The notes beneath the pieces were generated by a model, which did no database searches, was not told where the DNA came from, and was given only the letters and a program-made list of their open reading frames with translations. Of a stretch of 64,000 nt of DNA, positions 17,770 to 60,888 are shown piece by piece. The DNA comes from Fabrea salina. Lineage: Eukaryota; Ciliophora; Heterotrichea; Heterotrichida; Fabreidae. How positions within the stretch are numbered: the stretch's first letter is position 1; each line of letters starts with the position of its first letter. A program made the position numbers and the translations under genes. The stretch spans positions 124,001 through 188,000 of the forward strand of contig JALIHJ010000021.1 in assembly GCA_022984795.1 (NCBI GenBank), read 5' to 3'.

Positions 17770-19191
17770 ATGGTTACTCCCAAAAAAGATTACTTAGGTG
17801 AGATCTTAGAAGATGTAGGGTGGGGGAAGTACCAGTACTGGATGTTTTTTGTTTGTGGTTGCGTAATGCTTACTTAGTCATGGTCCCAAGACATGATTTG
17901 GACCGTAAACATAGGAATCATTATGAGCAGTGCTGGTGACGAGTGGAACTTGAGTGAAGTAGAAAAAGGAATTATAGGGTCTTGTTTTATGGTAGGGATG
18001 CTTATAGGTTCTTACACGTGGGGAGTCCTTGCAGACAAACGTGGAAGAATGTTTGCTTTTAAAAACACTATAATCTGTGCAGGAATTGCAACGTTGGTTT
18101 TAACTTTTTCAGTGAACTTCTACATGCTGTGCGTAATGGTTGTAGTGCTAGGTGCAGGAGTGGGAGGAGAAATATGCGTTGGAGGAGTGGTTTTCCAAGA
18201 ATTCTGTCCTCCAAGTAAACAATGGGCTCTTGCATTACTTGCTGCATGTTGGTGCTTGGGAGGAACTTTAGCCGCACTTATAGCAGTAGTAGTGGAGTTT
18301 ACTTCGCCTCCCTATCAGCTTTGGAGGTGGCTTTGTGGTATAGGAGTGCTTATTCAAGTGGTGTACTGGCTCATCAGAAGGAAGAACCCTGAAACTCCAA
18401 GATTCCTTTTTTTGAGTTCAGAGTTTGAATTAGCAGAGGCTTTGCTGCAGCAAATGGCAAACACCAACGGAAAAAATATCAGAGTCAAAATAGACATTAA
18501 CCAAGCAAAGGAAGTGTGTGAAAGCCAAAACAACTTAAAAAAGTCGCTTATAGAAAAAACTGAAAACTCAAGCATCATGCGTGAAATATGGACAAATTAC
18601 TTAGGAGTAACTGTAGCACTACTGATGGTGTACTTCTGTTTGAACTTTGGGTCAACTGGAATAAACATATTCATGCCTGAGCTGCTTAAAGAAAGTGGAG
18701 GAGAAGTTAAAGGAGTCATGCTTTACATGACTATTGTAATTCAACAAGCAGCTGGAATTCCTGGAGTTTTTGTCTCAACTAAGCTAGTTGAGTCGCGACT
18801 AGGCCGGAAAATCACCCTTATATTCTCTGTGGTGGTAACTGGACTGTTTGCGTTTTTGTTTTTGGTGGCTCGGTCGTACGCTCTGGTGAGTTTTACTTAG
18901 ATTTTAACATTTACTTCTTTGTCGAGCTTTTTCAACTACATTACTTTTTCTTGCCTGTATTTGATCACGCCTGAAAGCTACCATACAGAAGTCAGAAATA
19001 CAGGGGTAGGAATAGCTAATTCCTCAGCAAAACTAGGCGGACTTATAGCGCCTTTGTTAACAGGATTTATGCTGGACATTAAGGACGGATTTAGCATTAC
19101 TTTGATTGCTATGTCTGTGATGTACTGGGGAAGTGGGTTGTCAGCACTGATGCTTAAAGAAACAAGGGGGCGTTCTCTAGACGCAAAGTAG
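17770..19191 (+). CDS. MFS transporter, SV2/SVOP-like, two 15-nt introns (copy 1)
   Basis: The coding sequence is 17770-17862, 17878-18885 and 18901-19191, giving 463 aa. Unspliced, each intron adds an in-frame TAG. The N-terminus YLGEILEDVGWGKYQYWMFFVCGC is typical of the SV2/SVOP branch, followed by ~12 hydrophobic helices. The MFS signature lies between TM2 and TM3 (LADKRGRMF) with a second copy after TM8 (ESRLGRKITL). The NPETPRFLF motif before the central loop and the C-terminal SYHTEVRNTGVG block are typical of organic solute carriers. Substrate unknown. It is the upstream member of a tandem pair of identical length and intron layout. Stop is TAG; the next copy starts 51 nt on. Confidence 0.9.
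17863..17877 (+). other. 15-nt intron, MFS copy 1, intron 1
   Basis: GTAATGCTTACTTAG separates FVCGC from SWSQDM. It has GT..AG ends, is phase 0, and its last three bases form an in-frame TAG. Removal joins an otherwise broken transporter, and the paralog has an intron at the same position. Confidence 0.92.
18886..18900 (+). other. 15-nt intron, MFS copy 1, intron 2
   Basis: GTGAGTTTTACTTAG lies between YAL and ILTFTS in a membrane helix. Phase 0 with in-frame TAG; removal restores the helix. The 5' site is GTGAG rather than GTAAG. The paralog has an intron at the same position. Confidence 0.93.
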
Positions 19192-19242: not shown

Positions 19243-20664
19243 ATGGAATCACAAAGAAAGGATCACCTTGGCGAAATACTTGAGCAGGTAGGGTGGGGAA
19301 GGTACCACTACTGGCTGTTCTTTGTATGCGGATGTGTAAGTTTTACTTAGTCATGGTCTCAAGACATGCTTTGGATCATAAACATGGGAATCATTATGTC
19401 AAGTGCGGGGGACGATTGGAACCTTACGGAGCTAGAAAAAGGCGTTTTGGGCGCTTGCTTTATGTTCGGAATGTTTGTAGGGTGCTACTTCTGGGGCTAC
19501 TTTGCAGACAGGCGTGGCCGCATGTTTGCCTTTAGGAAGACGGTGATCATTGGAGGTTTGGCTACGCTAGCGTTGACTTTCTCGGTGAATTACTACATGA
19601 TGTGCGTTCTGACGATACTAGTCGGGGCAGGTGTGGGAGGAGAAATTTGCATGGGGGGTGTTGTTTTTCAGGAGTATTGCCCTCCCAGTAAGCAGTGGAT
19701 GCTGGCGTTACTGTCGGTGTTCTGGTGCTTAGGAGGAACTCTGGGTGCGTTTGTGGCTTTGATTGGAGATATTATTTCTCCTCCTTTTGCTTTGTGGAGG
19801 TGGGTCTCTGGTGTGGGCACGCTGATTCAGTTCGTTTACTGGTTAATCAGACTAAAGGTGTCTGAAACTCCAAGATACTTGTACATGAACTCCAGGTACG
19901 AAGAAGCAGAAGCTACACTCCAGAGCATCGCTGACGATATAGGAAACAACATGAACGTTAAAATAGACCAGATTGACTTAAAGCCTATGGGAACACTTGA
20001 CAACAGCCTTAAAGAATCACTTGTGCAAAAGGAGAACTCTAGCATCATGAGGGAACTCTTTGGCAAGAAGTACTTCAGAGTCACTACAGCTACACTGTGT
20101 GTGTTCTTTTTGATCAACTTGTCATACATAGGAATTACTGACTTCATGCCCCAACTCCTCAAGGACAGCGGAGGAGGAATCAATGGAGTCATGCTTTACT
20201 TAACTATGGTTGTGCAACAAGCTTCAGGAATTCCTGGAGTTCTGGTTTCCACTTGGCTTGTGGAAACTTGGATGGGCAGGAAGTACACTCTTGCAGGTTC
20301 AGCAATAGTGTCAGGCATGTTTTGTTTTTTGTTTTTGATTGCTGACTCTTATGCAATGGTAACTTTTACTTAGATATTGACTTTTACATCCTTGTTGAGT
20401 TTCTTCAACTACAGTATATACTCCTGCTTGTTCCTGATAGTTCCAGAAAGCTACCACACTGAAGTAAGGAACACTGGAGTAGGACTTGCCAATTCTTCGG
20501 GAAAGTTAAGTGGTCTTTTGGCTCCTCTGGCAATGGGACTGATGCTTGACGTGCCTCACGGGTTTACTATCACACTTATTTCAGCTTCTGTAATGTTTTG
20601 TGCTTGTGGCTTGTCGGCTTTGTTGCTGAAAGAGACAAGGGGTCTTTCCTTAGACGCTGATTAA
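19243..20664 (+). CDS. MFS transporter, SV2/SVOP-like, two 15-nt introns (copy 2)
   Basis: The coding sequence is 19243-19335, 19351-20358 and 20374-20664, giving 463 aa, exactly the length of the upstream paralog. Conserved landmarks match: HLGEILEQVGWGRYHYWLFF, FADRRGRMFAF (MFS signature), GAGVGGEICMGGVVFQEYC, SETPRYLYMN and SYHTEVRNTGVG. The central loop (~230-255) diverges most. The two genes clearly arose by tandem duplication, and the introns predate the duplication because their positions and phases are the same. Substrate unknown, probably small organic molecules. Stop is TAA. A secretory cyclophilin follows after 86 nt. Confidence 0.9.
19336..19350 (+). other. 15-nt intron, MFS copy 2, intron 1
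   Basis: GTAAGTTTTACTTAG between VCGC and SWSQDM, same place as in copy 1. Phase 0, in-frame TAG at the 3' end. This is the exact consensus form seen elsewhere in the window. Confidence 0.94.
20359..20373 (+). other. 15-nt intron, MFS copy 2, intron 2
   Basis: GTAACTTTTACTTAG between YAM and ILTFTS, same place as in copy 1. Phase 0 with an in-frame TAG. Confidence 0.93.
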
Positions 20665-30203: not shown

Positions 30204-31316
30204 CTATAGATTACTTGCGATGTAATGCCTCACATCTTGGTTGCTGTTTGCTAGGTTTATTAAGAAAGGCAACAGTGAGATCAGTGCTTGGTCGTCGGGG
30301 TCTCCTTTCCAAGTTGTTATTTGTATTCCATTTTGAGGCTGTTTCGAAAAACTATAAGGGCTATTGTCCACTATGCAAACTCTACTTAAGTCCCTTCCTA
30401 GAGTCCTCAAGTCCTTTATGTAATTTTGGGTGTGTTCTCTGTAAAGCCTTAGAGTTATTCTACTCCCGGAGTCTATTGTTCTGAGAGCAGCATCAGCGTG
30501 TCCCGCTGAACTAGCTGTGAACAAAACAACTTCGAATCTTTCAGAAACCTCAGTTAAAAACCTTTCTACTCCAGGCCTTGCTCTAAAACTGTTTTTCCAC
30601 AAGCACCCTAGAGTTTCGTCAAGGTCCAGCACAAGTGTGTAGCTTTTGCTGGTGTAAGCAGGTAGGTAAGGCATAACTTTGTTGGTGTACATCGAGTAGA
30701 GTGTGGGAAAGTTCTTTAACTCCACCACATTGGGAGCTTCGGTTTCAATGTTCTGAGCAGCCGTCAAAACCAAAAACAGTGGTGTACGAATCAAATGCTC
30801 AAGGAGTTCGAGCAGTTTGATCAACTTGAATATAATAGAAGTGGAAAGTTCTGAGTAACCAGACAAGAATTCCTGAAAGGCCTGTTTTATGTATTTTCCC
30901 AGCTCAAGGTTAGACCTAAAAAGCTTCTCAATAAGGTATCCCACTTGGTAAGACTCTCTGCAGTGCGCTATTTGCACTAAGCTCACTCCCATCAATTTTA
31001 CGTTTTGGGAGATTTCGTTGTAGATTTGGGCTTTTCTAATTTTGAGAGCCTTGGAGCTGGCCTTTGAAAATTCTTCCATTACAAGAATTGCTATTGCCTG
31101 GAACCCAATGCTTTCGTGGAAAAGCGAAAAATCTGAGTCTATCAAAATGCACAATCGCTTGTAAATATCAAGAAAGCATGCTGTACTTTCAGAAAAAGAA
31201 CTTATTAAAGTACCTAGGCGTGTCAGTATAGGCAGTAACTCATTAATTTTGCCACTTGAAAAACTTGGTAAACCTGAATTAATAGTTAGAATCCCTGGAG
31301 TTTTAGCTTCCTGCAT
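30204..31316 (-). CDS. FCP1/SCP-type (HAD) phosphatase with N-terminal helical domain
   Basis: A 370-aa protein. The C-terminal ~160 residues form an FCP1-homology/HAD domain: TLVLDLDETLG (catalytic DxDxT), RARPGVERFLTEVSERFEVVLFTAS, DLSRVCIVDNSPYSFSKQPQNGI (second acidic motif) and the tail TTWKGDPDDQALISLLPFL, as in SCP/Dullard proteins. The N-terminal ~200 residues are helical and unknown to me. Possible substrates are RNA polymerase II CTD or lipin-type proteins. The frame is open to 31340 only from a GTG; ATG at 31316 with context TTTTAAAATG is used. Stop is TAG. Confidence 0.88.
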   Translation of the reverse strand: MQEAKTPGILTINSGLPSFSSGKINELLPILTRLGTLISSFSESTACFLDIYKRLCILIDSDFSLFHESIGFQAIAILVMEEFSKASSKALKIRKAQIYNEISQNVKLMGVSLVQIAHCRESYQVGYLIEKLFRSNLELGKYIKQAFQEFLSGYSELSTSIIFKLIKLLELLEHLIRTPLFLVLTAAQNIETEAPNVVELKNFPTLYSMYTNKVMPYLPAYTSKSYTLVLDLDETLGCLWKNSFRARPGVERFLTEVSERFEVVLFTASSAGHADAALRTIDSGSRITLRLYREHTQNYIKDLRTLGRDLSRVCIVDNSPYSFSKQPQNGIQITTWKGDPDDQALISLLPFLINLANSNQDVRHYIASNL

Positions 31317-32793: not shown

Positions 32794-34389
32794 ATGGAAT
32801 CAGAAGAGGAATCACTCAAGTGTCTTACTGAAAATGAACTAAACTCGCCACTAATTGAGAAATATGAAATAGTTGAGCACTCGCCTAAAATGCGATTTTC
32901 TCGTTTCAATGAGCAAATAGGGAGTGGGGCCAGTAAAGTTGTATATAAAGCCGTAGACAACTACACAGGGTGCGAAGTAGCTTGGAATGTTGTCAAAACC
33001 TGCAACCTTACGCGTTCTGAAAAGCAAAGAATCAGGGACGAAATCATGATAATACAGAGATTGCAGCACCAAAACATTATACACCTAATTCGGGCTTGGC
33101 ACAACAAACAGAAGGAGGAAATAGTTTTCATCACAGAAATCATGACTGGAGGGTCTCTCAGAAATTACCTAAAAAAAATAAGGAAGCCTTACCTCCGTGT
33201 GATCAAGCACTGGTGTTTAGGAATCTTAAGGGGACTTCATTACCTGCACTCCCAAAAACCCTACCCTATTATTCACCGAGACCTTAAATGTGACAACATA
33301 TTTGTGAGTTCCAGTACTGGTGACGTCAGAATTGGGGACTTAGGTCTTTCAGTTTTTATGACGAGCTCACACAAAGCCAGTTGTCTAGGCACCCCTGCCT
33401 ACATGGCCCCTGAACTTTTTGAGGAGAAATATGGCCCTAGTGTGGACATTTATGCCTTTGGAATGTGCGTTTTGGAAATGTGCACCCAAGAAATGCCTTA
33501 CTCTGAATGCAGCAAGGCTACTGAAATCTATCGGAAAGTAATGACAGGAGTCAAACCAGAGGCTTTGGAAAGAATCCAGGACGAAGAGCTCAAAAGCTTC
33601 ATAGAACTGTGCATAACACCTGTTGACCAAAGACCACTTACAGAGGAGTTACTTAGTCACTCTTTCCTTGAAGTAGACGATTCTGACGAAAGAGTCCACA
33701 GACCTCCCAAAGTAAAAAATGGAGTTCCGAAACTCCTCGATCTTAAGTCAGAACCAACTCAAGAAGGCACTATAAAGACTTACATTTCTATAGGAATTAA
33801 AGACCCAGTCAGTAAAACTGTCAGAAAAGCAAGGTACGACTTTGACTTTGACTTAAGTCGTGACTGCTCTTACGAAGTAGCTTCTGAACTCGTAATGCAA
33901 CTGGGTTTAGAAGTTAAGCATCTCCCAGTACTTGCTGAAACTATGCAAGAAAGAATAGACGAGATCCTTAACGAAAAGGAAGAAGGAAGTATTAGTTGCA
34001 ACTCAACAGCCATCACGCACAAATTGACTCCCTTTTCTTCTGGAAACCGGTCCCCCCTGGACTCTTGCCAAGCCACCTTGCCAGATGAGGTAGAAAGCAA
34101 TGTGATAGAAGCTCTGTGCCACTGGGAGTTTCCGGGAGTGCTTAACAAGGAAACTTGCGACATTGTTGCCATAGCTAAGTTGCAAGAAGCCCTTGAACAT
34201 GCTTTAGGCGTTAAAATAAACGAAAGGGGATACTACGGACTTAAAACTGAAATTATGGTTAAGAAGTTCGAAGAGCAACTTGGGCTGAACCCTACCGGAG
34301 AGGTAAATTACGAGATTTGGGAAAAACTTTTTAACTCACAAAGTTTAGCAAACCCCAAAAAAGTATTTCTAAGACATTTAAGCTTCTAA
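32794..34389 (+). CDS. WNK-family kinase with CCT/PF2-like and PGBD-like C-terminal domains
   Basis: A 531-aa protein. The kinase domain (~35-300) has the WNK hallmark: the usual VAIK lysine is replaced (VAWNVV, Asn65) and a lysine sits in the glycine loop (GSGASKVVYK, Lys48). HRDLKCDNIF, DLGLS and LGTPAYMAPE are intact. At ~325-390 (TYISIGIKDP, RKARYDFDFDLSRDCSYEVASELVMQLGL) lies an OSR1/CCT-like PF2 domain, standard in WNKs. At ~455-515 a segment (AKLQEALEHALGV, RGYYGLKTEIMVKKFEEQLGL, PTGEVNYEIWEKL) looks like a peptidoglycan-binding-like PGBD module, which is unusual here. WNKs regulate ion transport and cell volume. Confidence 0.92.
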   Translation: MESEEESLKCLTENELNSPLIEKYEIVEHSPKMRFSRFNEQIGSGASKVVYKAVDNYTGCEVAWNVVKTCNLTRSEKQRIRDEIMIIQRLQHQNIIHLIRAWHNKQKEEIVFITEIMTGGSLRNYLKKIRKPYLRVIKHWCLGILRGLHYLHSQKPYPIIHRDLKCDNIFVSSSTGDVRIGDLGLSVFMTSSHKASCLGTPAYMAPELFEEKYGPSVDIYAFGMCVLEMCTQEMPYSECSKATEIYRKVMTGVKPEALERIQDEELKSFIELCITPVDQRPLTEELLSHSFLEVDDSDERVHRPPKVKNGVPKLLDLKSEPTQEGTIKTYISIGIKDPVSKTVRKARYDFDFDLSRDCSYEVASELVMQLGLEVKHLPVLAETMQERIDEILNEKEEGSISCNSTAITHKLTPFSSGNRSPLDSCQATLPDEVESNVIEALCHWEFPGVLNKETCDIVAIAKLQEALEHALGVKINERGYYGLKTEIMVKKFEEQLGLNPTGEVNYEIWEKLFNSQSLANPKKVFLRHLSF

Positions 34390-34405: not shown

Positions 34406-34903
34406 TTACATACTTTGGCGGAACTTAGCAAACTTAGAATAAGCTTGCAAGCTGTTTTCTGGGCTTGAGTCAGGTTGTTTGTTTTCTTCTGGGAGTTGTT
34501 GAGGCTCGGAAGAAGAACCTTTAGTTTGGTCTAGTAAACTAAACCACAAAGAGATTATTGAAGAGTCTGCTTTATCATAAAAAATGAATGAAAAATTACA
34601 AATGCACCTGTGCTGCCCGTACCTAATTATAACTTTTCCTTTGATGTTTTTGGACCTTCTGGGCTCGCAGTAACGCTCTTCAAAGGTAGAACTTAACTTT
34701 GCTGAGAAACTGCTCATGTAGCTTTCTTCGTAGTTGATGAATACAATTTTGCTAGTTGTCAAAATAAGTTTGCCTTCGCCGTGGAATGTGTCGAGGTCGT
34801 TAATTTCAATTAACCCAACTACGTTAGAAGCTTCTTTAACAAAGTACTCGTTCTCTTCATAAATTAGAGTTTTGTCTTTGACTTGTTCGCAGTTTATTGC
34901 CAT
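34406..34903 (-). CDS. GRAM/WBP2-like domain protein
   Basis: A 165-aa protein. Residues ~30-130 resemble the GRAM/PH-like domain of the WBP2 family: FHGEGKLILTTSKIVFINYEES is the typical strand pair (G-x-L-x-L-T-x-x-R/K-I-V-F), followed by strands CICNFSFIFYDKADSS and IISLWFSLLD. The C-terminus is Glu/Gln/Pro-rich and disordered. Function is probably membrane or protein binding. Its first 10 nt overlap the end of the upstream gene, in another frame. The 3' end is 16 nt from the convergent WNK gene. Confidence 0.66.
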   Translation of the reverse strand: MAINCEQVKDKTLIYEENEYFVKEASNVVGLIEINDLDTFHGEGKLILTTSKIVFINYEESYMSSFSAKLSSTFEERYCEPRRSKNIKGKVIIRYGQHRCICNFSFIFYDKADSSIISLWFSLLDQTKGSSSEPQQLPEENKQPDSSPENSLQAYSKFAKFRQSM

Positions 34904-35430
34904 TTAGTATTATAACATGCAGAGTTCTTTGTTCCGAAAGTACTTAAGTGTTGGGGTTTGGGCGGAGGCTTCACATCAAAAGCTGCAAACCTTTTTAGTT
35001 CTCTTTCGTAGTAAGAGTTAAGGCGTTGTCTGAATATTTCAGAAGGAGACTGGTCGTACCTTTTGGGAAAAGACCTTCTTTGCAACATAGAGTTGATTTT
35101 CCACTTGAGGTCTTGTGCGTTGTTTACTTTTCTGTGACTTGAAAGCAAACCTCCAGAGTCTAGTTGGCTTAGTTCTTTTAGGCTTTGAGAGTTAACAACT
35201 GTTTGGGAACCTGTTTCAGTTTGGGTGTTAGAACTTTGGTTTGTTTTTGAGTCTTGGTCAGTTTCGAGTTCAGCTATTTCTGACAAGCTTTTTTGGGTGA
35301 AAAGTACCTTTTTGTTTTCCCGGTTAGGGAGTTCTGTGGGCTTTTTAAGAATAGACTCAGGTTTGTAAAGTTCTTTTTTAGAGGGTTCCAAGTCATCTAT
35401 TGTTAATGCGGGGTCTGCTTTTTTGTCCAT
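34894..35430 (-). CDS. Hypothetical disordered protein, 178 aa
   Basis: I do not recognise this protein. It is rich in Lys, Glu, Ser, Gln and Pro and probably disordered. Short motifs include KKVLFTQKSL (a KVxF-like PP1-docking motif, VLFT) and a C-terminal helix QSPSEIFRQRLNSYYERELKRFAAFDV. The last residues TKWQ are encoded by sequence that also contains the ATG of the GRAM-like gene, an overlap of 10 nt in different frames. Six nt separate it from the Rrp43-like gene upstream. Reality is supported by the array context, by the ATG context AATTTAAAATG and by neighbour-like codon use. Confidence 0.62.
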   Translation of the reverse strand: MDKKADPALTIDDLEPSKKELYKPESILKKPTELPNRENKKVLFTQKSLSEIAELETDQDSKTNQSSNTQTETGSQTVVNSQSLKELSQLDSGGLLSSHRKVNNAQDLKWKINSMLQRRSFPKRYDQSPSEIFRQRLNSYYERELKRFAAFDVKPPPKPQHLSTFGTKNSACYNTKWQ

Positions 35431-35436
35431 TTTAAA

Positions 35437-36030
35437 TTAGTTTTTTAAAGAAAATAGTTTGCCTACGAACTGGTTGTTTTGCTTGAGCAAACTAAGGTTG
35501 TGTGAAGCAGAACTGATGCAGGACTGGCAGGTTTTTACTATGTTTTCTAAGTCGGACAAAGCTATGGGGTCTCCTTGGGTTTTGAAAAAGTTCACTTTGT
35601 TTTGACTTACAAGCACTGTGAACTGCGAAGTTGAGTTTTGTTCTTCTTCTTTAGTTGGGTCTCTCACGTAGTACCCAAACAAGTCTCCAAAAGTAAAAGG
35701 AAACAAAACTTCGTCTTTGTCTATCAAAATCTGGTACCCCAGAGTCACTGCTTCTTCAAGGTTTCCATCGTCCACAATCACTTTAACAAGTGTTTTGCCA
35801 GCAGTCTCCCCTAAGAAACTTAAGTCCCTCCAACCTTCAATTCCTTGTCCCTCAGTCTTTTCTAGTAGCACAGCTGTGTTGCCTATTCTTACTAAGCAAG
35901 AGTGGGATTTTAACTGAATAGCGTACTTTCGGGGCTTGTCTAGTTTCCTGCCGTCAGGTCTGAGTCCCTCTTTCAAATAAGCGGTAAAGAAGTCACGAGG
36001 CAGAACTTTCCTGATGACTGAAGAATTCAT
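35437..36030 (-). CDS. Shortened RNase PH-like exosome subunit (Rrp43/EXOSC8-like)
   Basis: A 197-aa protein. The N-terminus FFTAYLKEGLRPDGRKLDKPR and CLVRIGNTAVL match the opening of the exosome RNase PH-like subunits Rrp42/43/45. The C-terminal half (YYVRDPTKEEE, QFTVLVSQNKVNFFKTQGD, LSDLENIVKTCQSCIS) matches the DPTxxEE...G..L..A-rich end of EXOSC8. Human EXOSC8 has ~276 aa, so about 80 internal residues are missing although the fold ends are kept. The subunit is part of the non-catalytic exosome ring that threads RNA to 3'-5' nucleases. The ATG shares its A with the TAA of the upstream REEP-like gene (TAATG). Confidence 0.78.
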   Translation of the reverse strand: MNSSVIRKVLPRDFFTAYLKEGLRPDGRKLDKPRKYAIQLKSHSCLVRIGNTAVLLEKTEGQGIEGWRDLSFLGETAGKTLVKVIVDDGNLEEAVTLGYQILIDKDEVLFPFTFGDLFGYYVRDPTKEEEQNSTSQFTVLVSQNKVNFFKTQGDPIALSDLENIVKTCQSCISSASHNLSLLKQNNQFVGKLFSLKN

Positions 36031-36581
36031 TATTGATTATTAGCTAAGTAAGAGGCACCTTGCTTCACAACTTCTTCCTTTGCTTTGGCTGCGGCTTCAC
36101 TTGTGGCTGAAACTACTTTGTCTATTCCTTCGTCAATTACTTTTTGGTGCTTAGCTAAGAAGGGTCCTACAAACGAGTCGTAAATAGTAACTGCGCCTTT
36201 AGTTTGTGGAGCAAACAAGTACACTAGAAATACTAGTTTGAAAACAAAGAAGAAGGGAATCCAGGAAAACAGCACCTCTACCCAGTCATCCACCACTCTG
36301 AAAATAGAGAAAATCACCCAGTATGTGAGCCAGAGCTTATCGTCTTCTTCACCAGGTGACTCAATGGCCTTAATGGACATGTAAGCTGGGTAGGCTGTTC
36401 CGATAAAGTTACAAATCACGTCTGCTCCGAAACCGAAAACCATCAAAAACAGAAGAAAACCAACCACTCCCAGAATGAGATAGCGAGTAGGGACTCCTGC
36501 CTTCTCCGTGATCTTTTGCACGGCTGGAATTCCGTCTAGAGCCTTTTCGATTTCAGACAACTTTTGGTTAACCTGCTCCAT
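36030..36581 (-). CDS. REEP/Yop1 (TB2/DP1/HVA22) ER membrane-shaping protein
   Basis: A 183-aa protein with a TB2/DP1/HVA22 domain: a hydrophobic hairpin (LILGVVGFLLFLMVFGFGADVI), then NFIGTAYPAYMSIKAIES, the family hallmark, DDKLWLTYWVIFSIFRVVDDW, and FVFKLVFLVYLFAPQTKGA, then an amphipathic C-terminal helix. Family members insert hairpins into ER tubules and curve the membrane. Length is close to yeast Yop1 (180 aa). The stop TAA overlaps the start of the Rrp43-like gene by 1 nt. Eight nt separate it from the EH-domain gene. Confidence 0.94.
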   Translation of the reverse strand: MEQVNQKLSEIEKALDGIPAVQKITEKAGVPTRYLILGVVGFLLFLMVFGFGADVICNFIGTAYPAYMSIKAIESPGEEDDKLWLTYWVIFSIFRVVDDWVEVLFSWIPFFFVFKLVFLVYLFAPQTKGAVTIYDSFVGPFLAKHQKVIDEGIDKVVSATSEAAAKAKEEVVKQGASYLANNQ

Positions 36582-36589
36582 ATTATTTA

Positions 36590-37888
36590 CTAGCTATTAT
36601 TTTTGGGTAAGTTTTGCTTGAAGAAACTTACAGTTGCTTCGCAAGTGTCTTTGATCGTTTTAGAAGAAATGTCTTGGAGTCGCGACGAAAGCATTTGGTT
36701 ACGTTCTCTCTGCAAAGAAAGTTTTTGCCTCAATGCTTGCCACTCCCGCATTACCTTTTGGAGCTCCTCTTCAACTTTCTTTAACTCTTCAGTGCAGTCT
36801 TCGTCTGCTTTTACTTGGTTTCCAGAGAAGTTGTTTTGTTTGGAAACTGAAATGCTAATTTTGGTTTTGAAGTCTTGTGAAAAGGCTCTGGCTGAGTCTT
36901 GAGAGGACCTGTAGGACAAAGAAGGCGACTTTAACTCTGAAGAAGCAGGCTCTTTAGGAGAACTTTTAGGTGGAGGAATTTTAGGAACAGAACTTTTGGG
37001 AGGAGAAGCTTTTTGCGAAGGAAAGGGTTCGAAAGTGTCAAATTCGGCAAATAGTTCTTTTTCTGTAGGTTCGAAAGTTTGGGCTTTTTGAGGCAAAGGC
37101 TGAAACTCTTGAAAGGCACTTGGCTGAGGGGGTTCGAGTGGTTCTGGATGCTGAATAGGTTCGTTTATAACAGTTTTTAGCGAAGGAGGGAGTTCGTTTG
37201 GAGGGGGTTCTTTCTTTTCAGTGAGCATGTAAAGCAAGTGCATCATAACTGCAAACTGGTTAGTGTTGAAAGTTCCTGTTTGATTAACATCACAAAGGTC
37301 CCAAATGCGTGAAAGCATTCCTTGGTCAGCTTTGGTTTGCATCATAACTTGCATAGCTTGTTGTGTTTGGAGTTCAGGGGCTCCTGCACTAAGTTGGTCA
37401 AACATTTGGTGGTACTTAGTTTTGTCAGCTTCAGGCATTGACCAAAAGTCAGGCTTAGGCCCAGTTGACTGGAACTTAGGAAGCGGTGCCTGTTCGTCGT
37501 TGTAAACGGCTTCAGCATTTACGGGTTTTCCAGACTGAGCAAGTCCAACAAGTCTTAAAGCGCAGTAAAACCTGTCTTTGTCTAAAAAAGTTTCGTTGTT
37601 GGGAGTGCAGATGTTCCAGATTTCTTTCAAAACGTCAACTGGAAGACTGGAGCGCTTCAAAAACTCTACAATAGTAGGCCCTTCAATATGCTGTTTGTCC
37701 TGAGGGTCTACTTGAGACAACAAAAGATTGTACAGACCTCTTTCTTTAGGAGTGAGTTTTACTCGCAGAGGTTTGGGAGGAGCTGGTTCTTCTGGTTGAA
37801 ACTGTTGGTAATTGCCAGGCGGCATGGTTTGGTACTGGTACATGTATGGGTTTGGTTGCCCTTGCCAACCCATGAAGTTTGGGTTCAT
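36590..37888 (-). CDS. EH-domain endocytic protein (Eps15/Pan1-like)
   Basis: A 432-aa protein. The N-terminus is Gly/Gln/Tyr/Pro-rich. Two EH domains lie at ~48-140 (LTPKERGLYNLLLSQVDP, LPVDVLKEIWNICTPN, FLDKDRFYCALRLVGLAQ) and ~150-240 (DKTKYHQMFDQL, LSRIWDLCDVNQTGTFNTNQF). EH domains bind NPF peptides of endocytic adaptors. The middle is rich in Pro/Ser/Lys and disordered. The C-terminus is a coiled coil (EELKKVEEELQKVMREWQAL). It resembles Eps15-type scaffolds that gather clathrin adaptors. The frame is open to 37945, but ATG at 37888 (GTATAAAATG) is used; it is 16 bp from the divergent MFS start. Confidence 0.9.
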   Translation of the reverse strand: MNPNFMGWQGQPNPYMYQYQTMPPGNYQQFQPEEPAPPKPLRVKLTPKERGLYNLLLSQVDPQDKQHIEGPTIVEFLKRSSLPVDVLKEIWNICTPNNETFLDKDRFYCALRLVGLAQSGKPVNAEAVYNDEQAPLPKFQSTGPKPDFWSMPEADKTKYHQMFDQLSAGAPELQTQQAMQVMMQTKADQGMLSRIWDLCDVNQTGTFNTNQFAVMMHLLYMLTEKKEPPPNELPPSLKTVINEPIQHPEPLEPPQPSAFQEFQPLPQKAQTFEPTEKELFAEFDTFEPFPSQKASPPKSSVPKIPPPKSSPKEPASSELKSPSLSYRSSQDSARAFSQDFKTKISISVSKQNNFSGNQVKADEDCTEELKKVEEELQKVMREWQALRQKLSLQRERNQMLSSRLQDISSKTIKDTCEATVSFFKQNLPKNNS

Positions 37889-37904: not shown

Positions 37905-39239
37905 ATGTCCCAAGAAAGAGGAGCACTTGAAATCTTCAAAGCCACTATTCTAGAGATCCTGAAGAGTCCTAAAGAACTCTTCTTAGTTTACTCAATAAAC
38001 TTGCTTTTGACCTTTAACTACAACACCCTAACGTTCATGATTCCTTTGTATTACACGCAAGAACAAAAGGTATCGGACACCCAAGCAGGCCTAGTTTTTG
38101 GTTCACTTGGAGTACTGATAGGAGTGCTTGCTGTTGTTTTAGGACCAGTTATAAACATTTTGAGCTGTAAAAAAGGCATTTTGATGTCAAGCATCTCCGG
38201 AGCTGTTGGGTTTGGACTTCTTGGACACACTCGGGCTTTTGGGGTAAGTTTGGTAGCAGTGGTGCTGTTCCATTCAGTTTCTATTTCAATGGCTTGGTCA
38301 GTGGTAGAGTTGGGTGTTAAAATGTTCACTCCGCCTGAAGCCCGCAACACAAGTAACTCTTTTCTGTTGGTAGTTAACTATTTAAGTGGAATTCTGGCAG
38401 GCTTTTTCATCGACTACGTTTGGTCCAACTACGAAAACAAAGAGCACATTTACAGAAACATTTATTACACAAGCTGTGCAAGTGCATGCTTAGCTATGAT
38501 TCTAGCCCTTTTCTTGAACGAAAGTCAAGCTTTTGAAAGCATTAAGCCTGAAAGTTACGGTTTGAACCGCAAAGTCTTTGTGAAAAAGCGGTTTTGGAGG
38601 TTTGCAGGGCTTATTTTACTTTTGACACTTTTGAGAAGTGGTTGTTTCGGCCACTTAGACGCAACTTTTCCTAAGTTCATGGTGAGGGTGTTTGGAGATG
38701 ACGCTCACTTTGGGAACTTAATAGCTGTGCATTCGACTTCAATGATGCTGGGGACTCTAGGTTTCACTCCACTGTCTTACATCACCTCTAGTTACAACCT
38801 TATACTAGTAGGTGGTTTTTTGGGAGCACTAGCTCCTACAGTGTTGGCCTTTGAGCCCACTTATGCAACTTGTGTAGTTTTTGTAGTTCTGATATCTTTT
38901 GGAGAAAGCATCTGGGTACCCAGACTCCTTGACTACACATTTGAAGTTGCTCCGCAGGGTGAGGAAGGGACTTACTTAGCCCTCAACAACTCACCTAACT
39001 ATTTTGGAATGATTTTAACAGGTTTGTTTTCAGGGAATTTATTAGAGTCTTTTTGTCCGCCAGAAGGAGAAAAGCAATGTTACTTAATTTGGATAGTTAT
39101 TGGAATAGCCACTTTCACTATTTCAATAGTGATTTGTTTGTTGAAGCCCTTTATAATCCAACCTAAGGACGAAGAAGAAGAATTTCTGCCTTGCTTCAAA
39201 GACTCCCAACCCATTATAGACGGCAAACCATGTAATTAA
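37905..39239 (+). CDS. MFS transporter
   Basis: A 444-aa protein with ~11-12 hydrophobic helices. The N-terminal basic region (MSQERGALEIFKATILEILKSP) precedes TM1 (LFLVYSINLLLTFNYNTL). The A-like loop (GPVINILSCKKGILMSS) replaces the classical signature, and TM4-6 (SISMAWSVVELGVKMFTPPEARNTSN) resemble those of peptide/solute MFS families. The C-terminus is acidic. I cannot name a substrate. The frame extends upstream to 37812 but that would overlap the divergent EH gene; ATG at 37905 fits the start context. Its stop TAA abuts the ALIX stop on the other strand with zero nt between. Confidence 0.85.
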   Translation: MSQERGALEIFKATILEILKSPKELFLVYSINLLLTFNYNTLTFMIPLYYTQEQKVSDTQAGLVFGSLGVLIGVLAVVLGPVINILSCKKGILMSSISGAVGFGLLGHTRAFGVSLVAVVLFHSVSISMAWSVVELGVKMFTPPEARNTSNSFLLVVNYLSGILAGFFIDYVWSNYENKEHIYRNIYYTSCASACLAMILALFLNESQAFESIKPESYGLNRKVFVKKRFWRFAGLILLLTLLRSGCFGHLDATFPKFMVRVFGDDAHFGNLIAVHSTSMMLGTLGFTPLSYITSSYNLILVGGFLGALAPTVLAFEPTYATCVVFVVLISFGESIWVPRLLDYTFEVAPQGEEGTYLALNNSPNYFGMILTGLFSGNLLESFCPPEGEKQCYLIWIVIGIATFTISIVICLLKPFIIQPKDEEEEFLPCFKDSQPIIDGKPCN

Positions 39240-44537: not shown

Positions 44538-47461
44538 CTAAGGAACATGCAAAAGGGTGTTCAGGTACTCCCACCTTTTGAGAAGTCCAGATTTCTTGGC
44601 TTCCAAAACCTCAGCCATTATGATCTTGGGGTTTTTCTCCTTTATAACGCCAAGACACTTGTGGGCCATTTCTTTAAACTCGCCTTCGTCTTCAGAAAGC
44701 ACTAAGCTTGTTAAATTTTTGATGATTTTTCTCAAGTCGCCTACCAGATTTTCTTCAGACTCGTCCACAATGTTTCTTTGCAGGGATATTTTTCCACTCT
44801 TAACCTCTTCAATAAAGTTGGGCTCTACTAGTACATTGGGCAAACAACCAAGAAGAGTCTGTAAGCATTCAAGAGCCCTTAAACTTACTTCTTCATTAGA
44901 ACTTTCGAGGAGTTCTAGCAACTTCTGACAAACAACTGGAGTCACAGGTTTGTTTTCAAGGTGAATGGCTACGTCTTCTGTTTCAAGTGATCTTTCTTGG
45001 AGTATTGAGAATTGATGGACTAGATGAGTTAAAGCCTGGGCAACTATAATCTCATCTGGGTCCTCCAAGCAAGTGTAAAGGGCATGAACTAACTCAGGCT
45101 TTATTTCTTTCAAGTCGTAAAAGTCCAGAATGCTAAGGGTTTCTTCTCTAATTTTTGACTTAAGGTTTTGATTTTTACCCAAAGGCTCCAAAGCTGGACA
45201 AATTACTTTTTTTATGAGTTTTTTGCCTTCAATTATTTTAAGACGTGCAAGGTTCAAGCACTCTAGTTGGATGCTAAGTGTTTTTTCTGAGGTGTAAACT
45301 CTGTTAAGAATACTGAGAATCTTTTCGTTGCAGGTTTTGTCTTTCAAAGTGCCCATTAAGTTGTTAAGTTTGTTTGAGCAAACTTCAAACAGTTTCCACT
45401 AAGTAAAACTTACGTTTTCGTCGTAACTATGCCAGTTTTCAACATTGGTGTTTTCAAGTTCTCGCACTACTTCTTGCATGCACCAAGAAAACTGGTTTGT
45501 TGGCTCGGTTTTTTTGTTTTCTTCCCACTTAAGAATGTTGACCAGACTAGTTATCAAGGCTTCAGAGCGTTTGCTTGCTTCAGTTCCGCCCATGCCTAAA
45601 GCTTCAGCTTTCAAAATCAACTTGGTCAACCTAAAGGCTTCTTGGTATACCAAAGACAAGTCTTCCAGCTCTTCGCACCTTTCAGAAGCTCCTTCTACCA
45701 CTGAAGCAATTACTTCTAGCACCTGTAGTACATTACCTGAGTTTACCAAAGGCAGGAACTGCTCTAGAGCTTCCAGAAGGTCCTGGAACTTAGAAGCAAT
45801 TCTTGAAATGCCTTGGCCCGGAGGAGAGGCTTCCACTGCGCCTTGGATTAAAAACCTGAGTGCCACTATGGCCCCTTCACTGTTGATTTCTTCTGTAACA
45901 TTTCCCTGAAAACAGTTAATAAACATGCATAAAATATTGTATGTAGACTTTGGTGGCTATAGATTACATACCTTACCCTTAAAGTTGAAAGTACTTGAGG
46001 AAGGTAGCTTTCGATAGGCACATACCTACCTACTAGGCGCAGACTTGTATGGAGGTTTTCAAGGACTTTAGGAGAGTCGTTGATTAGGAGTGCTTTGTAC
46101 ATGTTTGTAAGGAACTTGTCTAGCTGCTGTGTGATGTAGTCCTCTGTAAATATAATCAAAGCCAAAAGTAAGTTTGAAGAGTGTTCGCGCGAAGTAGAAA
46201 TCCAGTCAGAAACCTCAGAAAAGATTGGTTTGAGGTACCTCTGAACGTACTTTCTGAAAAAAAGACGTGCTCCTAAGCGAGGTCGTTTTGCAAAAGGTTC
46301 GGGTAAGGGCAGATATATCATTTGCCCTTCTGCAGTCCAGGGTTCTTGGAAACCTAGTTGTCTGATTTCGCGTATGTCTTTTTCGTTGTCTTCTTCGTAC
46401 TGCTGTCCTATTTCTTCAATTTGTTCAAAACACATTTCCCTTATTTCTGGAATAGGGTCAAAAAGCCCTGCCAGTATGTAAGGAATCAGTCTTGACTCGT
46501 GGTCACCTTTATCAGGCAGTCGCAGAAGCCAGTCTGCAACTACTCTGTAAAAGACTTCCCTTACGTTAGCAGACCTGTCGTTCACAAGCATTGCTAAGTA
46601 GTTCAGTTTGGTAGAGGGTTCGTAAAAGTCTTTTATAGGAACTACGTTAGGGTCTCTAAACCCTATTAAGGCTTCCATTATAGTTGCGTTGTATTTGTAA
46701 GGACCACAGTGCATAACTTTTCCTAGGGCGTCGAGTCCGGCCTTTCTGACTTTCCAGTGCTTGTGAACCAAGCAAGAAAACAAACTTCTAGCAAGTTTCT
46801 CGCTGTAGTGCAAAAGCAGTTTTGGCGCGGTGCAGCATAGCAAAGACATTCCGTTGCAGGCTTCTTTCATAACGTCTCCGTTGGAAGGGTCCATAACTAA
46901 AGCTCTAATCACGTTAGTGAACTCGTCAAGGTAAGGAGCAAAGTGCTGGGGTTGCGTGATTTCAATCAAGCGTGACACTAGTTGGGCAATGATTAAGCGA
47001 ATTTCTTCTGACTTCTCAGGGGGGTCTTTGAGGGCTTGTGGCTTTTGGGAGGGCTGAGGACGCATCACTTCTGGAAGGTTTTCGACTCCTTCGAGGTCAA
47101 AAGCTCCTAATCTCTCCACTAAAACTGGCATAAGGTAGGGCAGGAACTCTGCTTCGTCTATGCACCTAGAGATCAGTCTAAGTTAACTTTACTCTTTGAA
47201 AATGTTAATTGACAGTTCTCTGCACTTTTCTTTGATGTCTGAAAACTCCTTTAGAAGGGGCTTGGCTATTTCTGAAAGAACTTCTTGAACCACATCTTTG
47301 TAAAGTTTACATTGCTTGAGGGGAGGTTTGGCGTCTATTAACACTTCTTTGAGGGTAGTGAGACTTTGAGTCCTTATTTTGAAGTTTGAGTCTGAAAGTC
47401 CGTTTATTTCGCGCTGAAGGGACTTCAATAAGTCCTGTGCAGAATGCCTGACGTCTGACAT
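44538..47461 (-). CDS. DNAAF5: Dynein axonemal assembly factor 5 (HEATR2), three introns
   Basis: Exons 47461-47193, 47177-45977, 45905-45414 and 45398-44538 give 940 aa made almost wholly of HEAT repeats. The start LLKSLQREINGLSDSNFKIR leads into CIDEAEFLPYLMPVLVERLG. Similarity to DNAAF5 shows in EEIRLIIAQLVSRLIE, LARSLFSCLVHKHWKVRKA, ADWLLRLPDKGDHESRLIPYI split in parts, and FEQIEEIGQQYEEDNEKD. DNAAF5 works in the cytoplasm with other factors to preassemble outer and inner arm dyneins, which fits a heavily ciliated cell. Two introns are 15 nt; the third is ~71 nt (or 20 nt). Human DNAAF5 has 855 aa. Stop is TAG. Confidence 0.88.
45399..45413 (-). other. 15-nt intron in DNAAF5 (third)
   Basis: GTAAGTTTTACTTAG on the minus strand, phase 0 with in-frame TAG. 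It joins YDEN to WKLFEV and identifies the first Met of the last ORF (45356) as internal. Confidence 0.93.
45906..45976 (-). other. Probable 71-nt conventional intron in DNAAF5 (second)
   Basis: The reading frame changes here and no 15-nt intron repairs it. A 71-nt intron starting GTAAGG, with a branch-point-like TATTAAC close to the 3' end and a TTTTCAG acceptor, joins TLR to GNVTEE and restores the frame. A 20-nt intron from the same donor to CTATAG would also restore it and insert 17 extra residues. The donor is shared. Confidence 0.65.
47178..47192 (-). other. 15-nt intron in DNAAF5 (first)
   Basis: GTAAAGTTAACTTAG on the minus strand, phase 2 (GA|A). Without splicing GAG-TAA ends the frame. 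Removal gives FKELISRCIDEAEF, continuous with the downstream ORF. Confidence 0.9.
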
Positions 47462-57464: not shown

Positions 57465-59531
57465 TTACTTCTTAAACTTTTTTTCTAGTTGGCTAAGCTT
57501 CCTGAGGTCATTTTCGATTTTAAAGGACTCTTTCTGGACTTCTCGGTGAATTTCTTGAAGGAAGTCTTTGCGGGTTTTATTTTGGGTGTTTTTGAAGGAA
57601 ATAAAGGGCAGACTTACAGATTTTTTTGAAGACTCTTTCTTTTTAGGACTTTTTTGTGTAGTTAAGAAGTCAGGGTTCTCGTCAGTTTGAAAGAGTTCTA
57701 AGTAGTTTTCTTGAATTCGGTTTTTCCGAGAGAACTCCATTTCTTTAAGGCTTTCGTTGCTCACGTAGAACCTGTTCACGTAGTTTTCAAAGTCGTCTTT
57801 CAAAACGAAAGTGTTTTTTTTCCTGGAACTTCTGTTAGAGTACCTTTTCAAAAAGCTGGGTTGGGAGTTGTTTAGTTCGTTGAATATTTGGTTGCTTTTT
57901 AAAGCTGGCAAAAGTTGGTTCGGAACTTGGTTGCTAGATAATTTTTTGACTTCAAAAACTAAGTAACTGATGAACTCAGTAACAACTTCAGTTCTTCTGG
58001 TGAAGTTTTGGGACCCCTTGTTAATTAAGCTTCTAATTGACTTTTCTAAGTTGGAGTAGTTAGTTCCGGTTAGTGTTTTGATACAGTCTTGCAGTTCTTT
58101 TTGAGTAGTAAATAGTTTTATTAGTTTGGTTTCAGAAACTTCTCTAGTGAAAGCAAGGGCTTCTTGTTGGCTTTTAGGAAAAAGTTCCAAAAACAAGTGT
58201 TTTGCTTTTTCGATTTGGTAGAGTTCACTTGAATTCTGTGTTTTGTTAGTGACAACTTCTTTTAAGAACCTGTTTTTTGCGTTTTCTGTGGTTTTAACTA
58301 ATCCTTTAGCTAAGTTGCAGTGTGACTTTTCTGCTATGAGTTCTATTTTTTTCATTAGCCCTTTTAGAATCTGCATTAAGTTCAGTAAAAGGTTTACTGA
58401 AAGATCTTCGAACTTTGTACTGGGAATTTCTAGTTTCTCAATGTCAACTAAAACAGATAGTTTGTTGAAGGTGGAGTCTTTAAAGTACTTACTGGACTTT
58501 TCTATGACTCTGTTGTACAGCTCTAAGGGGTATTCTTTTAAGCTGTTTAAGTCAAACTCAAGGTCCATGAATGTCTGTTTAAGGAACTTTTGTTTTTCAA
58601 CTAAACTAAAATAATACTTTTCAAGGTTCTCAGTTTTAAATGATATACTATGGAACTGGGATATTATTAATTGTATTTGATGGTTATCTAAAGGTGGGTC
58701 TTTGGAGAAATCTATTTTTAATCCAAGTAGATTAGAAATAGATTCAATACTGTTTTGGAAGGAATTGTATCTTTTATAATATTCTTTTCTGGTTGCTTTG
58801 TTTGAGTTAAGTTCTTTAATGTTTTTTTCTAAGTTTTGGAGTTTCTGGGCATTTTCTGTTTCTAGTTGGGCTTTTCTAAAAGACAGGTTGGAAATTCTAG
58901 TTAAGGTTTCTTGAGTTTTAGAGTTTATTTGGGCTTTAAGTTTTTCTTTGGAGTGGAGTTCTTGAGTTCTTTGGTTGGTTTTGTGGTTTAGAGTTTTCCT
59001 CATCTTTAAGGTTTCGTACTGGGACTCATAAAGTTCGTTTTCAGCTTTTTTTTGTTTGAACTTGGCTTCTTCGAAGTTTTTAGTTAGTTGTTGGTGGATT
59101 CTTTGGAGTTCTTCTAAGTTAGACTTAGCTATTAGGTGTTTTTGGAAAGTTTTTTCTTTTAGGTTTAAAAGCTGTTTAGTTTCTTCTTCAAGTAGAATAG
59201 TATTGGATTTGACGCTTTCAATCCTTTCGTTGATGCTGGGCTTATTTGTGTCAGTGGTTTTTTGTGTGATTTCGAGACTTTTAAGTTTCTTTTTGAGTCT
59301 ACTTAGTTCTTTTTTCTTCTGCAAGTTTTGAAAACTTAGTTGGTTCAAAGTGTTACTTAGTCTGTAATTTTCACTCGAAAATACTCTAAGGCTTTTCCTT
59401 TCACTGAAAGCTGGACTTAGGGTTCCAGTGAGTTGTCTGGAGTTAGGACTGGTTGCACAAAGGGCTTTAAGTTCTTTTTGGCTTAAAGAAGTAATCATGA
59501 TTCCTGGAACATTTCGGTCGTAGCTCGCCAT
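57465..59531 (-). CDS. Coiled-coil protein, 688 aa
   Basis: A 688-aa protein with an extended coiled coil from ~50 to ~310 (heptads in LSRLKKKLKSLEITQ, LLEEETKQLLNLKEK, LYESQYETLKMRK), then helical segments ending in a basic tail (REVQKESFKIENDLRKLSQL). No signal or TM. A cytoskeletal or basal-body role is plausible, exact family unknown. The frame extends to 59636; ATG at 59531 is chosen because upstream sequence is the divergent AAA gene and the context is ATATATATG. Only 4 bp separate this ATG from the divergent ATG at 59536. The convergent stop side also has zero spacing with RRP9. Confidence 0.75.
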   Translation of the reverse strand: MASYDRNVPGIMITSLSQKELKALCATSPNSRQLTGTLSPAFSERKSLRVFSSENYRLSNTLNQLSFQNLQKKKELSRLKKKLKSLEITQKTTDTNKPSINERIESVKSNTILLEEETKQLLNLKEKTFQKHLIAKSNLEELQRIHQQLTKNFEEAKFKQKKAENELYESQYETLKMRKTLNHKTNQRTQELHSKEKLKAQINSKTQETLTRISNLSFRKAQLETENAQKLQNLEKNIKELNSNKATRKEYYKRYNSFQNSIESISNLLGLKIDFSKDPPLDNHQIQLIISQFHSISFKTENLEKYYFSLVEKQKFLKQTFMDLEFDLNSLKEYPLELYNRVIEKSSKYFKDSTFNKLSVLVDIEKLEIPSTKFEDLSVNLLLNLMQILKGLMKKIELIAEKSHCNLAKGLVKTTENAKNRFLKEVVTNKTQNSSELYQIEKAKHLFLELFPKSQQEALAFTREVSETKLIKLFTTQKELQDCIKTLTGTNYSNLEKSIRSLINKGSQNFTRRTEVVTEFISYLVFEVKKLSSNQVPNQLLPALKSNQIFNELNNSQPSFLKRYSNRSSRKKNTFVLKDDFENYVNRFYVSNESLKEMEFSRKNRIQENYLELFQTDENPDFLTTQKSPKKKESSKKSVSLPFISFKNTQNKTRKDFLQEIHREVQKESFKIENDLRKLSQLEKKFKK

Positions 59532-59535
59532 ATAT
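59532..59535. promoter_or_regulatory. 4-bp divergent intergenic region
   Basis: Only ATAT separates the start codons of the coiled-coil gene (minus) and the VPS4-like AAA gene (plus). Promoters and any 5' UTR must lie inside the neighbouring coding regions. Confidence 0.4.
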
Positions 59536-60888
59536 ATGAGAAACCTTAAAAACCCTAATCCTCTTTCAGCTATATCTAATGTTAAACCTGAAAGAAGAGG
59601 TTTAGTGGAACCTGTGATATCTCGAACTAGTCTCAATAAAAAACTTGAAAGGGGTTTAAAGAACCTTTTGGACGATCAGAAATCAGGATTTCAAAGCCTC
59701 TTGAGTAAAGGCAGTTTAAAGTTCATAGACAGAGTGATGTTTGACGCAGGGGAGGGGCGGAGCAGCTCCAGTTCCTGTGCAAGTAGCTCTGGCAGCTGCA
59801 CTACCTTGCAAACTAGGTTCTGCGAAGACAGCAATTCTAAGTACCAAGCACAGCTTAGAAACCAAATCAAAAGTAATAGTTACCTAGAATGCATACTGAC
59901 TTGCAAACCCCAAGTTAAATTCCAGGACATTGCTGGCAACGAGTACCTAAAAGAAATCCTAAATGAAAGTTTATTTTTGCCCAGAGTAATTCCAAAACTT
60001 TTTAAAAATATTCGCGGAAAGCCTCGAATCTGGAATAAAGTTCTGTTGTACGGACCTCCTGGAGTGGGCAAAACTATGATTGCACAAGCAATTTGTGGAG
60101 AGTCAGGAGCTACTTGTTTTTGGGTTTCACTTAGTGACCTTGTTTCGAAGTTCATTGGAGAGAGCGAAAAGTTAATTCACATTCTGTTCCAAATGGCACA
60201 AGAAAACAGCCCTTCTGTTATTGTGTTTGATGAAATCGACTCTTTAGTGAGGAAAAGAACTGACGAAGAAAACGAAACTGAACGCCGCATTAAAACTGAA
60301 TTCTTGAGAAAGATGGACCAAGTTCAAAGCCCGGGAGGCGAAGTGATCATAGTAGGCACTACCAACATGCCTTGGGAAATCGACATTGCTGCTTTGAGAA
60401 GGTTCGACCGCAGAGTGTTGGTTCCTTTGCCTAACAAAAGCACTAGATCAGAGATCATCAAACTCCACTTAGGCGAAAGTCACGAACTAACTGAAGAAGA
60501 CTTTGAGTACTTAGCAGAACTTACAAGCGGATACTCAGGGTCAGACATAAGTGTCATTTGTAACGAAGCCTTACTGAAGCCTGTAAAAATGCTGCAGTAT
60601 TCAAGTTACTTCAAAGAAATGTGGATAGACGGGTGCAGGTTTTGGAGTCCTTGTGAAAAGACCGAAGAAGGCTCTGTAAGTATGAACTTAACTTCACTTG
60701 ACCCCTCTGAGTTACTGCTGCGCAAAGTCAGTATTAAAGACTTTAAGTCAAGTATCCAAAACTGCAAACCCACTGTTCAGTCCAGCTTAACTGAGCATTA
60801 CACAAACTTCCTTTACAAATTCGGCCACACTGAACAAAAGCACTCCTTAAAAGCTGTAGACCGAGGGCACTTAAGCTACTTTTGTTAG
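59536..60888 (+). CDS. VPS4/meiotic-clade AAA ATPase without visible MIT domain
   Basis: A 450-aa AAA ATPase. Walker A GPPGVGKT is at 173-180, Walker B VIVFDEIDSL, sensor/arginine region ALRRFDRRVLVPLP, and DIAGNEYLKEIL before it. The C-terminal segment VSIKDFKSSIQNCKPTVQSS...FLYKFG parallels the Vps4 C-terminal helix (DF...A..P.V...-FG). Vps4 disassembles ESCRT-III; katanin and spastin are the nearest alternatives. The N-terminal ~120 residues carry a Ser-rich tract (SSSSSCASSSGSC) and no obvious MIT domain, so it may be a divergent paralog. An ALIX gene lies at 39240. Stop is TAG. Confidence 0.88.
   Translation: MRNLKNPNPLSAISNVKPERRGLVEPVISRTSLNKKLERGLKNLLDDQKSGFQSLLSKGSLKFIDRVMFDAGEGRSSSSSCASSSGSCTTLQTRFCEDSNSKYQAQLRNQIKSNSYLECILTCKPQVKFQDIAGNEYLKEILNESLFLPRVIPKLFKNIRGKPRIWNKVLLYGPPGVGKTMIAQAICGESGATCFWVSLSDLVSKFIGESEKLIHILFQMAQENSPSVIVFDEIDSLVRKRTDEENETERRIKTEFLRKMDQVQSPGGEVIIVGTTNMPWEIDIAALRRFDRRVLVPLPNKSTRSEIIKLHLGESHELTEEDFEYLAELTSGYSGSDISVICNEALLKPVKMLQYSSYFKEMWIDGCRFWSPCEKTEEGSVSMNLTSLDPSELLLRKVSIKDFKSSIQNCKPTVQSSLTEHYTNFLYKFGHTEQKHSLKAVDRGHLSYFC

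Follow-up and report, generated by a model that had tools for sequence, protein, structure and literature searches.

Why should neighbouring genes in the nucleus of a eukaryote lie so close together that the stop codon of one and the start codon of the next have a base in common? The question is raised by a stretch of 64,000 nucleotides (nt) from the ciliate Fabrea salina (assembly GCA_022984795.1, contig JALIHJ010000021.1, forward-strand positions 124,001 to 188,000; hereafter the window), in which five minus-strand genes follow one another between positions 34406 and 37888. An initial annotation of this array drew attention to a TAATG junction of the kind usual in bacterial translational coupling and hinted at dicistronic messages. 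The present analysis leads to a plainer answer: very likely, the array is typical of a heterotrich macronuclear genome streamlined to the extreme, its genes being separately transcribed with tiny flanks and its overlaps being no coupling device.

The geometry itself is real. With coordinates given as window positions and frames taken from ATG to stop on the minus strand, the array opens with the gene for an EH-domain protein (36590..37888; 432 amino acids), followed across 8 nt that are wholly A/T (TAAATAAT, 36582..36589) by a gene of the REEP/TB2-DP1-HVA22 family (36030..36581; 183 amino acids). The stop codon TAA of the REEP gene (36032-36030) and the ATG (36030-36028) of the third gene, which encodes an Rrp43-like exosome subunit (35437..36030; 197 amino acids), have a single A in common, giving a true TAATG at 36028..36032 inside the A/T-rich GCTAATAATCAATAATG. 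A further 6 nt of A/T (35431..35436) lead to a gene for a 178-amino-acid protein with no assigned function (34894..35430), and the ATG of the last gene, termed GRAM-like (34406..34903; 165 amino acids), sits at 34903-34901, within the final 10 nt of the 178-aa frame and in a different frame (34894..34903). The spacing of 8, -1, 6 and -10 nt reported initially is thereby reproduced exactly from the open reading frame (ORF) coordinates, as is the one-base REEP/Rrp43 overlap.

In a Pfam search with matches considered up to E 0.1, the EH (1.3e-28, in two stretches), TB2_DP1_HVA22 (4.5e-29) and RNase_PH_C (8.4e-05) profiles back the names first given to the EH, REEP and Rrp43-like proteins; the REEP gene is one of 9 matches to its family in the genome. 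For the Rrp43-like protein, a phmmer search against PDB sequences returned three distinct sequences at E <= 0.01, all named RRP43. The best of them, 6h25_C, which we take to be the human RRP43 chain, matches with E 1.6e-4 over the whole sequence and 0.0059 for the N-terminal stretch alone, with residues 7-55 aligned to its residues 8-61. Since the N-termini align and the ATG in TAATG is the sole one in this frame, the start codon is, on this alignment, sound, and as far as the sequence goes the two genes do overlap by 1 nt. Single-sequence structure prediction of the protein gave a mean pLDDT of 37.2. A profile search found RNase PH at five other loci in the genome and did not list the divergent Rrp43-like gene; as the eukaryotic exosome has six RNase PH subunits, the five loci together with the Rrp43-like gene would equal that number.

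The last two proteins are less readily named. The 178-aa protein has no Pfam match up to E 0.1, finds only itself at E <= 0.001 in the sequence search and reaches only E 0.63 against PDB sequences. For the GRAM-like protein, the best sequence match has E 0.66 and the structure predicted from the single sequence a mean pLDDT of 40.0. Its sole Pfam match, Vps36_ESCRT-II (Vps36/GLUE) at E 0.023, lends a GRAM/GLUE-like family weak support and lies below the cut-off, so that the name GRAM-like stands without profile confirmation.

Gene spacing was also measured beyond the array. Our own intron-aware gene finder was applied to 19 pieces of DNA totalling 244 kb (the window together with 18 sampled stretches of 10 kb), yielding 175 genes that cover about 90% of the sampled DNA. 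With loci L001-L008, L027-L034 and L049-L055 excluded from the gap statistics and 18 of 156 adjacent pairs dropped on account of a gene scoring under 20, 138 pairs were kept. Their median gaps are 6 nt for convergent (n=28), 16 nt for tandem (n=79) and 34 nt for divergent pairs (n=31); an earlier gene set with a cruder choice of starts had given 7, 19 and 31.5 nt (33, 89 and 34 pairs). The shortest distances between divergent start codons are 3, 4 and 4 nt, and six of the 28 convergent pairs overlap, five of them by exactly 4 nt through interlocking stop codons (four with the palindrome TTAA, one with CTAA; L009:7857-7860, L014:6429-6432, L016:2331-2334, L017:5403-5406 and L023:8350-8353). Convergent and divergent neighbours cannot be carried on a common sense message, and tiny gaps therefore do not imply operons. 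In the window, two divergent genes have start codons 4 nt apart at 59531-59536, the other divergent gaps of 3 and 4 nt lying elsewhere in the sample.

A quantitative version of this argument is available, because a tandem gap consists of one 3' flank and one 5' flank, so that its distribution should follow from those of the other two classes. Roughly, it does. Among gaps under 200 nt (27 convergent, 73 tandem and 30 divergent pairs, with 8 of the 138 left out), a deconvolved model of independent flanks predicts for tandem pairs a median of 16 nt and probabilities of 0.09, 0.40 and 0.55 for gaps below 0, up to 8 and up to 20 nt, and the observed values are 15 nt, 0.04, 0.36 and 0.62. Tandem gaps shorter than independent flanks predict were thus not detectable in these 73 pairs, whereas common operons would have pushed them clearly below the prediction. 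Same-strand neighbours are in no clear excess (79 of 138 adjacent pairs, p 0.11). Rank tests separate tandem from divergent (p 0.024) and convergent from divergent gaps (p 0.007). The array belongs to the lower part of this distribution: three of 79 tandem pairs overlap (-17, -10 and -1 nt; four of 89 in the earlier set), only one of the 79 by a single base, and a run of four consecutive tandem gaps of at most 8 nt occurs in one of 13 possible windows of pairs taken without the score filter (permutation p 0.083), which makes it somewhat tight and not outstanding. The suggestion of bacterial-type coupling is not supported, with small gaps in all orientations and tandem gaps near the independent-flank prediction. 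Of ordinary genomes the accompanying statement, that TAATG-type overlaps are rare in nuclear genes, may be true; in this one, genes commonly abut. The array is real and ordinary for its genome, and the more interesting feature is the genome-wide tandem median of about 16 nt.

Each gene is most likely transcribed alone. Its start region would be a few A/T-rich bases immediately 5' of the ATG, its 5' leader would likewise be very short, and its 3' end would run into the next gene. Sequences preceding ATGs are rich in A/T over roughly 20 nt, and rich in A at -4 to -1. The same holds for the 32 genes with a tandem neighbour ending no more than 10 nt upstream, whose A/T fraction is 0.91 in -5..-1 and 0.71 in -20..-10. 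Of 161 starts, 31 have the hexamer TAATAA in -30..-1 against 10.0 expected, a count to which stop codons of upstream genes may contribute. Between close neighbours, start signals would then be embedded in the 3'-terminal coding sequence of the preceding gene, and mRNAs would overlap at their ends; the final codons of REEP, for instance, include the A/T-rich block GCTAATAATCAATA at TAATG. Short 3' untranslated regions (UTRs) are usual in ciliates, with a median of 41 bp in Loxodes (PMC11441545). A 3' UTR of that length exceeds most 3' gaps here and would reach into neighbouring genes. TAATG and the 10-nt overlap would accordingly represent the low end of the distribution of tandem gaps. If genes are expressed alone, half the convergent median puts the DNA that a gene typically needs downstream at about 3 nt, and half the divergent median puts that needed upstream at about 16-17 nt; with flanks so small, promoters and poly(A) signals would often lie within neighbouring coding sequence. 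Fabrea is therefore well suited to studying the minimum of DNA required for a eukaryotic promoter and terminator, and the way in which RNA polymerase separates abutting genes.

Several points weigh against separate transcription. One promoter per gene and overlapping transcript ends are inferred, and some of the 37 introns called by our finder are probably false. Genes with a close tandem neighbour show no more than a suggestive excess of A/T in their last coding bases (29 v 98 genes; p 0.058, 0.067, 0.056 and 0.32 for the last 12, 15, 20 and 30 nt). Two of the three sampled tandem overlaps fall in this array, a mild sign that it is unusual. Tandem mean and median lie slightly, and not significantly, under the half-sum of the other two classes (mean difference -4.0 nt, 95% bootstrap interval -15.4 to 7.5), and a sample this small would miss true operons if they were in the minority. 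Finally, the difference between convergent and divergent means (13.0, interval -5.7 to 31.2) spans zero, and convergent and tandem gaps do not differ significantly (rank test p 0.085).

Among the alternatives, the one that survives best concerns only the -10 overlap and is compatible with separately transcribed genes: an assembly indel or a wrong frame may have carried the 178-aa frame past a true stop slightly earlier. By coding score, the last 20 codons of this gene rank at the 6.7th percentile among the tails of 163 genes, compared with an ordinary 44.8th percentile for the REEP tail, and none of the frames there has a clear coding signal. With so weak a signal in the tail, the 10-nt overlap, exact in its geometry as first described, is to be taken as provisional and as less secure than TAATG. 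An EF-G-like gene elsewhere in the assembly (L028) also has, in our own reading, a frame break with no intron-like insert. Weak gene tails are not rare, on the other hand, and the only 15-16 nt intron candidate in the 178-aa gene scores -13.6 and lies well upstream of the tail, and an indel or wrong frame here is on balance unlikely. The frame change in the EF-G-like gene, near position 2823 of L028, may itself be an assembly indel or a true frameshift.

Considerably less probable is a dicistronic mRNA with termination and reinitiation at UAAUG, by which ribosomes that finish REEP would restart at the Rrp43-like gene, and likewise pass from the 178-aa gene to the GRAM-like one. The exact TAATG, the 10-nt overlap and the Rrp43-like start context, which is only at the 31st percentile, speak for this model. 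Tandem gaps are, however, not detectably under the independent-flank prediction, and TGGGA, a motif of viral reinitiation sites, occurs on the sense strand of the array only at 36472 and 37303, more than 400 nt from both overlaps. To our knowledge, there is moreover no functional link between REEP and an exosome subunit. Slightly less probable again is a wider version, in which both gene pairs are made from such messages because this is general practice throughout the genome of a free-living ciliate with genes abutting within a few bases. Among the matches listed in a search for literature on ciliate operons, no title was relevant, which is no proof of absence.

A third model, leaky scanning past the first ORF, is highly improbable. 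It has in its favor that same-strand genes lie close together and that bicistronic loci are documented in green algae, where ORF 1 has a weaker start and AUGs upstream of ORF 2 are fewer (PMC11892635). The likeness ends with the neighbouring same-strand nuclear genes, since in the Fabrea array neither weak ORF 1 starts nor scarce AUGs are seen. Specifically, in each overlapping pair the start context scores higher for the upstream member (REEP 3.75 v Rrp43-like 1.40; 178-aa gene 5.87 v GRAM-like 4.02), and ATGs are not clearly depleted in REEP (4 vs 5.5 +/- 2.3 in shuffles) or in the 178-aa gene (6 vs 3.1 +/- 1.7). Nor are they in the upstream members of close tandem pairs across the sample (10.2 per kb in 31 genes v 10.8 in 132 others, p 0.99). 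Neither the strength of the starts nor the number of ATGs thus carries the mark of leaky scanning or supports the coupling initially hinted at.

Two further candidates were rejected outright: the five frames are not exons of one gene, as three of them match distinct families, each begins with an ATG and ends with a stop of its own, and no intron between any of them was called by the gene finder; and bacterial contamination or transfer is contradicted by eukaryotic families, predicted introns and ciliate telomeres in the same genome.

The genomic setting fits tight packing of separately transcribed genes. The assembly comprises 18,328,466 bases (18.33 Mb) in 103 contigs, and the macronuclear genome of Fabrea salina measures 18.35 Mb. 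Telomere repeats (CCCTAACA/TGTTAGGG) mark 12 of 14 contig ends examined; both ends of the window's own contig are non-telomeric. The clear introns, predicted from the DNA, are 15 nt long and GTAAnnTTTACTTAG-like (17863-17877 and 45399-45413 are examples), and the 175 genes hold 37 predicted introns. Stop codons in 158 predicted genes are TAA (126), TAG (23) and TGA (9), as in the standard code. Taken together, the CCCTAACA telomeres, the 15-nt length of predicted introns and the standard code indicate the macronuclear genome of a heterotrich ciliate. Compact nuclear genomes whose transcripts overlap neighbouring genes are found in Giardia, microsporidia and nucleomorphs. The likeness lies in gene flanks so short that transcripts would overlap their neighbours in Fabrea as well, and the difference is that those are parasites or endosymbiont relics, whereas the host of this array is probably a free-living heterotroph.

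The macronuclear genome of Fabrea salina is termed extremely streamlined in the title of Zhang et al. 2022 (msac062), and its code is given as canonical in PMC10553269; both agree with what is seen here. Blepharisma stoltei, a heterotrich (PMC9942806), has the same CCCTAACA telomere repeat as well as 15-16 nt introns, short intergenic regions and minichromosomes. In contrast, UGA encodes tryptophan there (PMC9942806), and TGA ends 9 of 158 predicted genes here.

A DNA search of the assembly returned a single match, with no second copy of the array. On the convergent side, a plus-strand protein kinase gene (32794..34389; WNK-like by a weak CCTL2_WNK match in Pfam) ends 16 nt from the GRAM-like gene; its product also carries a C-terminal match to PG_binding_1, a peptidoglycan-binding domain, at 2.5e-08. 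On the divergent side lies a plus-strand gene for an MFS transporter, identified by Pfam (37905..39239), the start codon of which is 16 nt from that of the EH gene as placed by the gene finder, with a longer frame opening at 37824.

Some further observations come from elsewhere in the sampled DNA. The heptamer TAATTAA occurs in 13 of 160 genes examined and is the commonest seven bases counted from the stop, and TTAA often follows stop codons. The genes at 17770-19191 and 19243-20664 lie next to each other in tandem, have the same length and each contain two predicted 15-nt introns in matching positions, probably the outcome of a duplication. At 30204-31316, finally, a gene encodes a CTD-phosphatase-like protein, named by eye, with 24 matches in the genome including itself.

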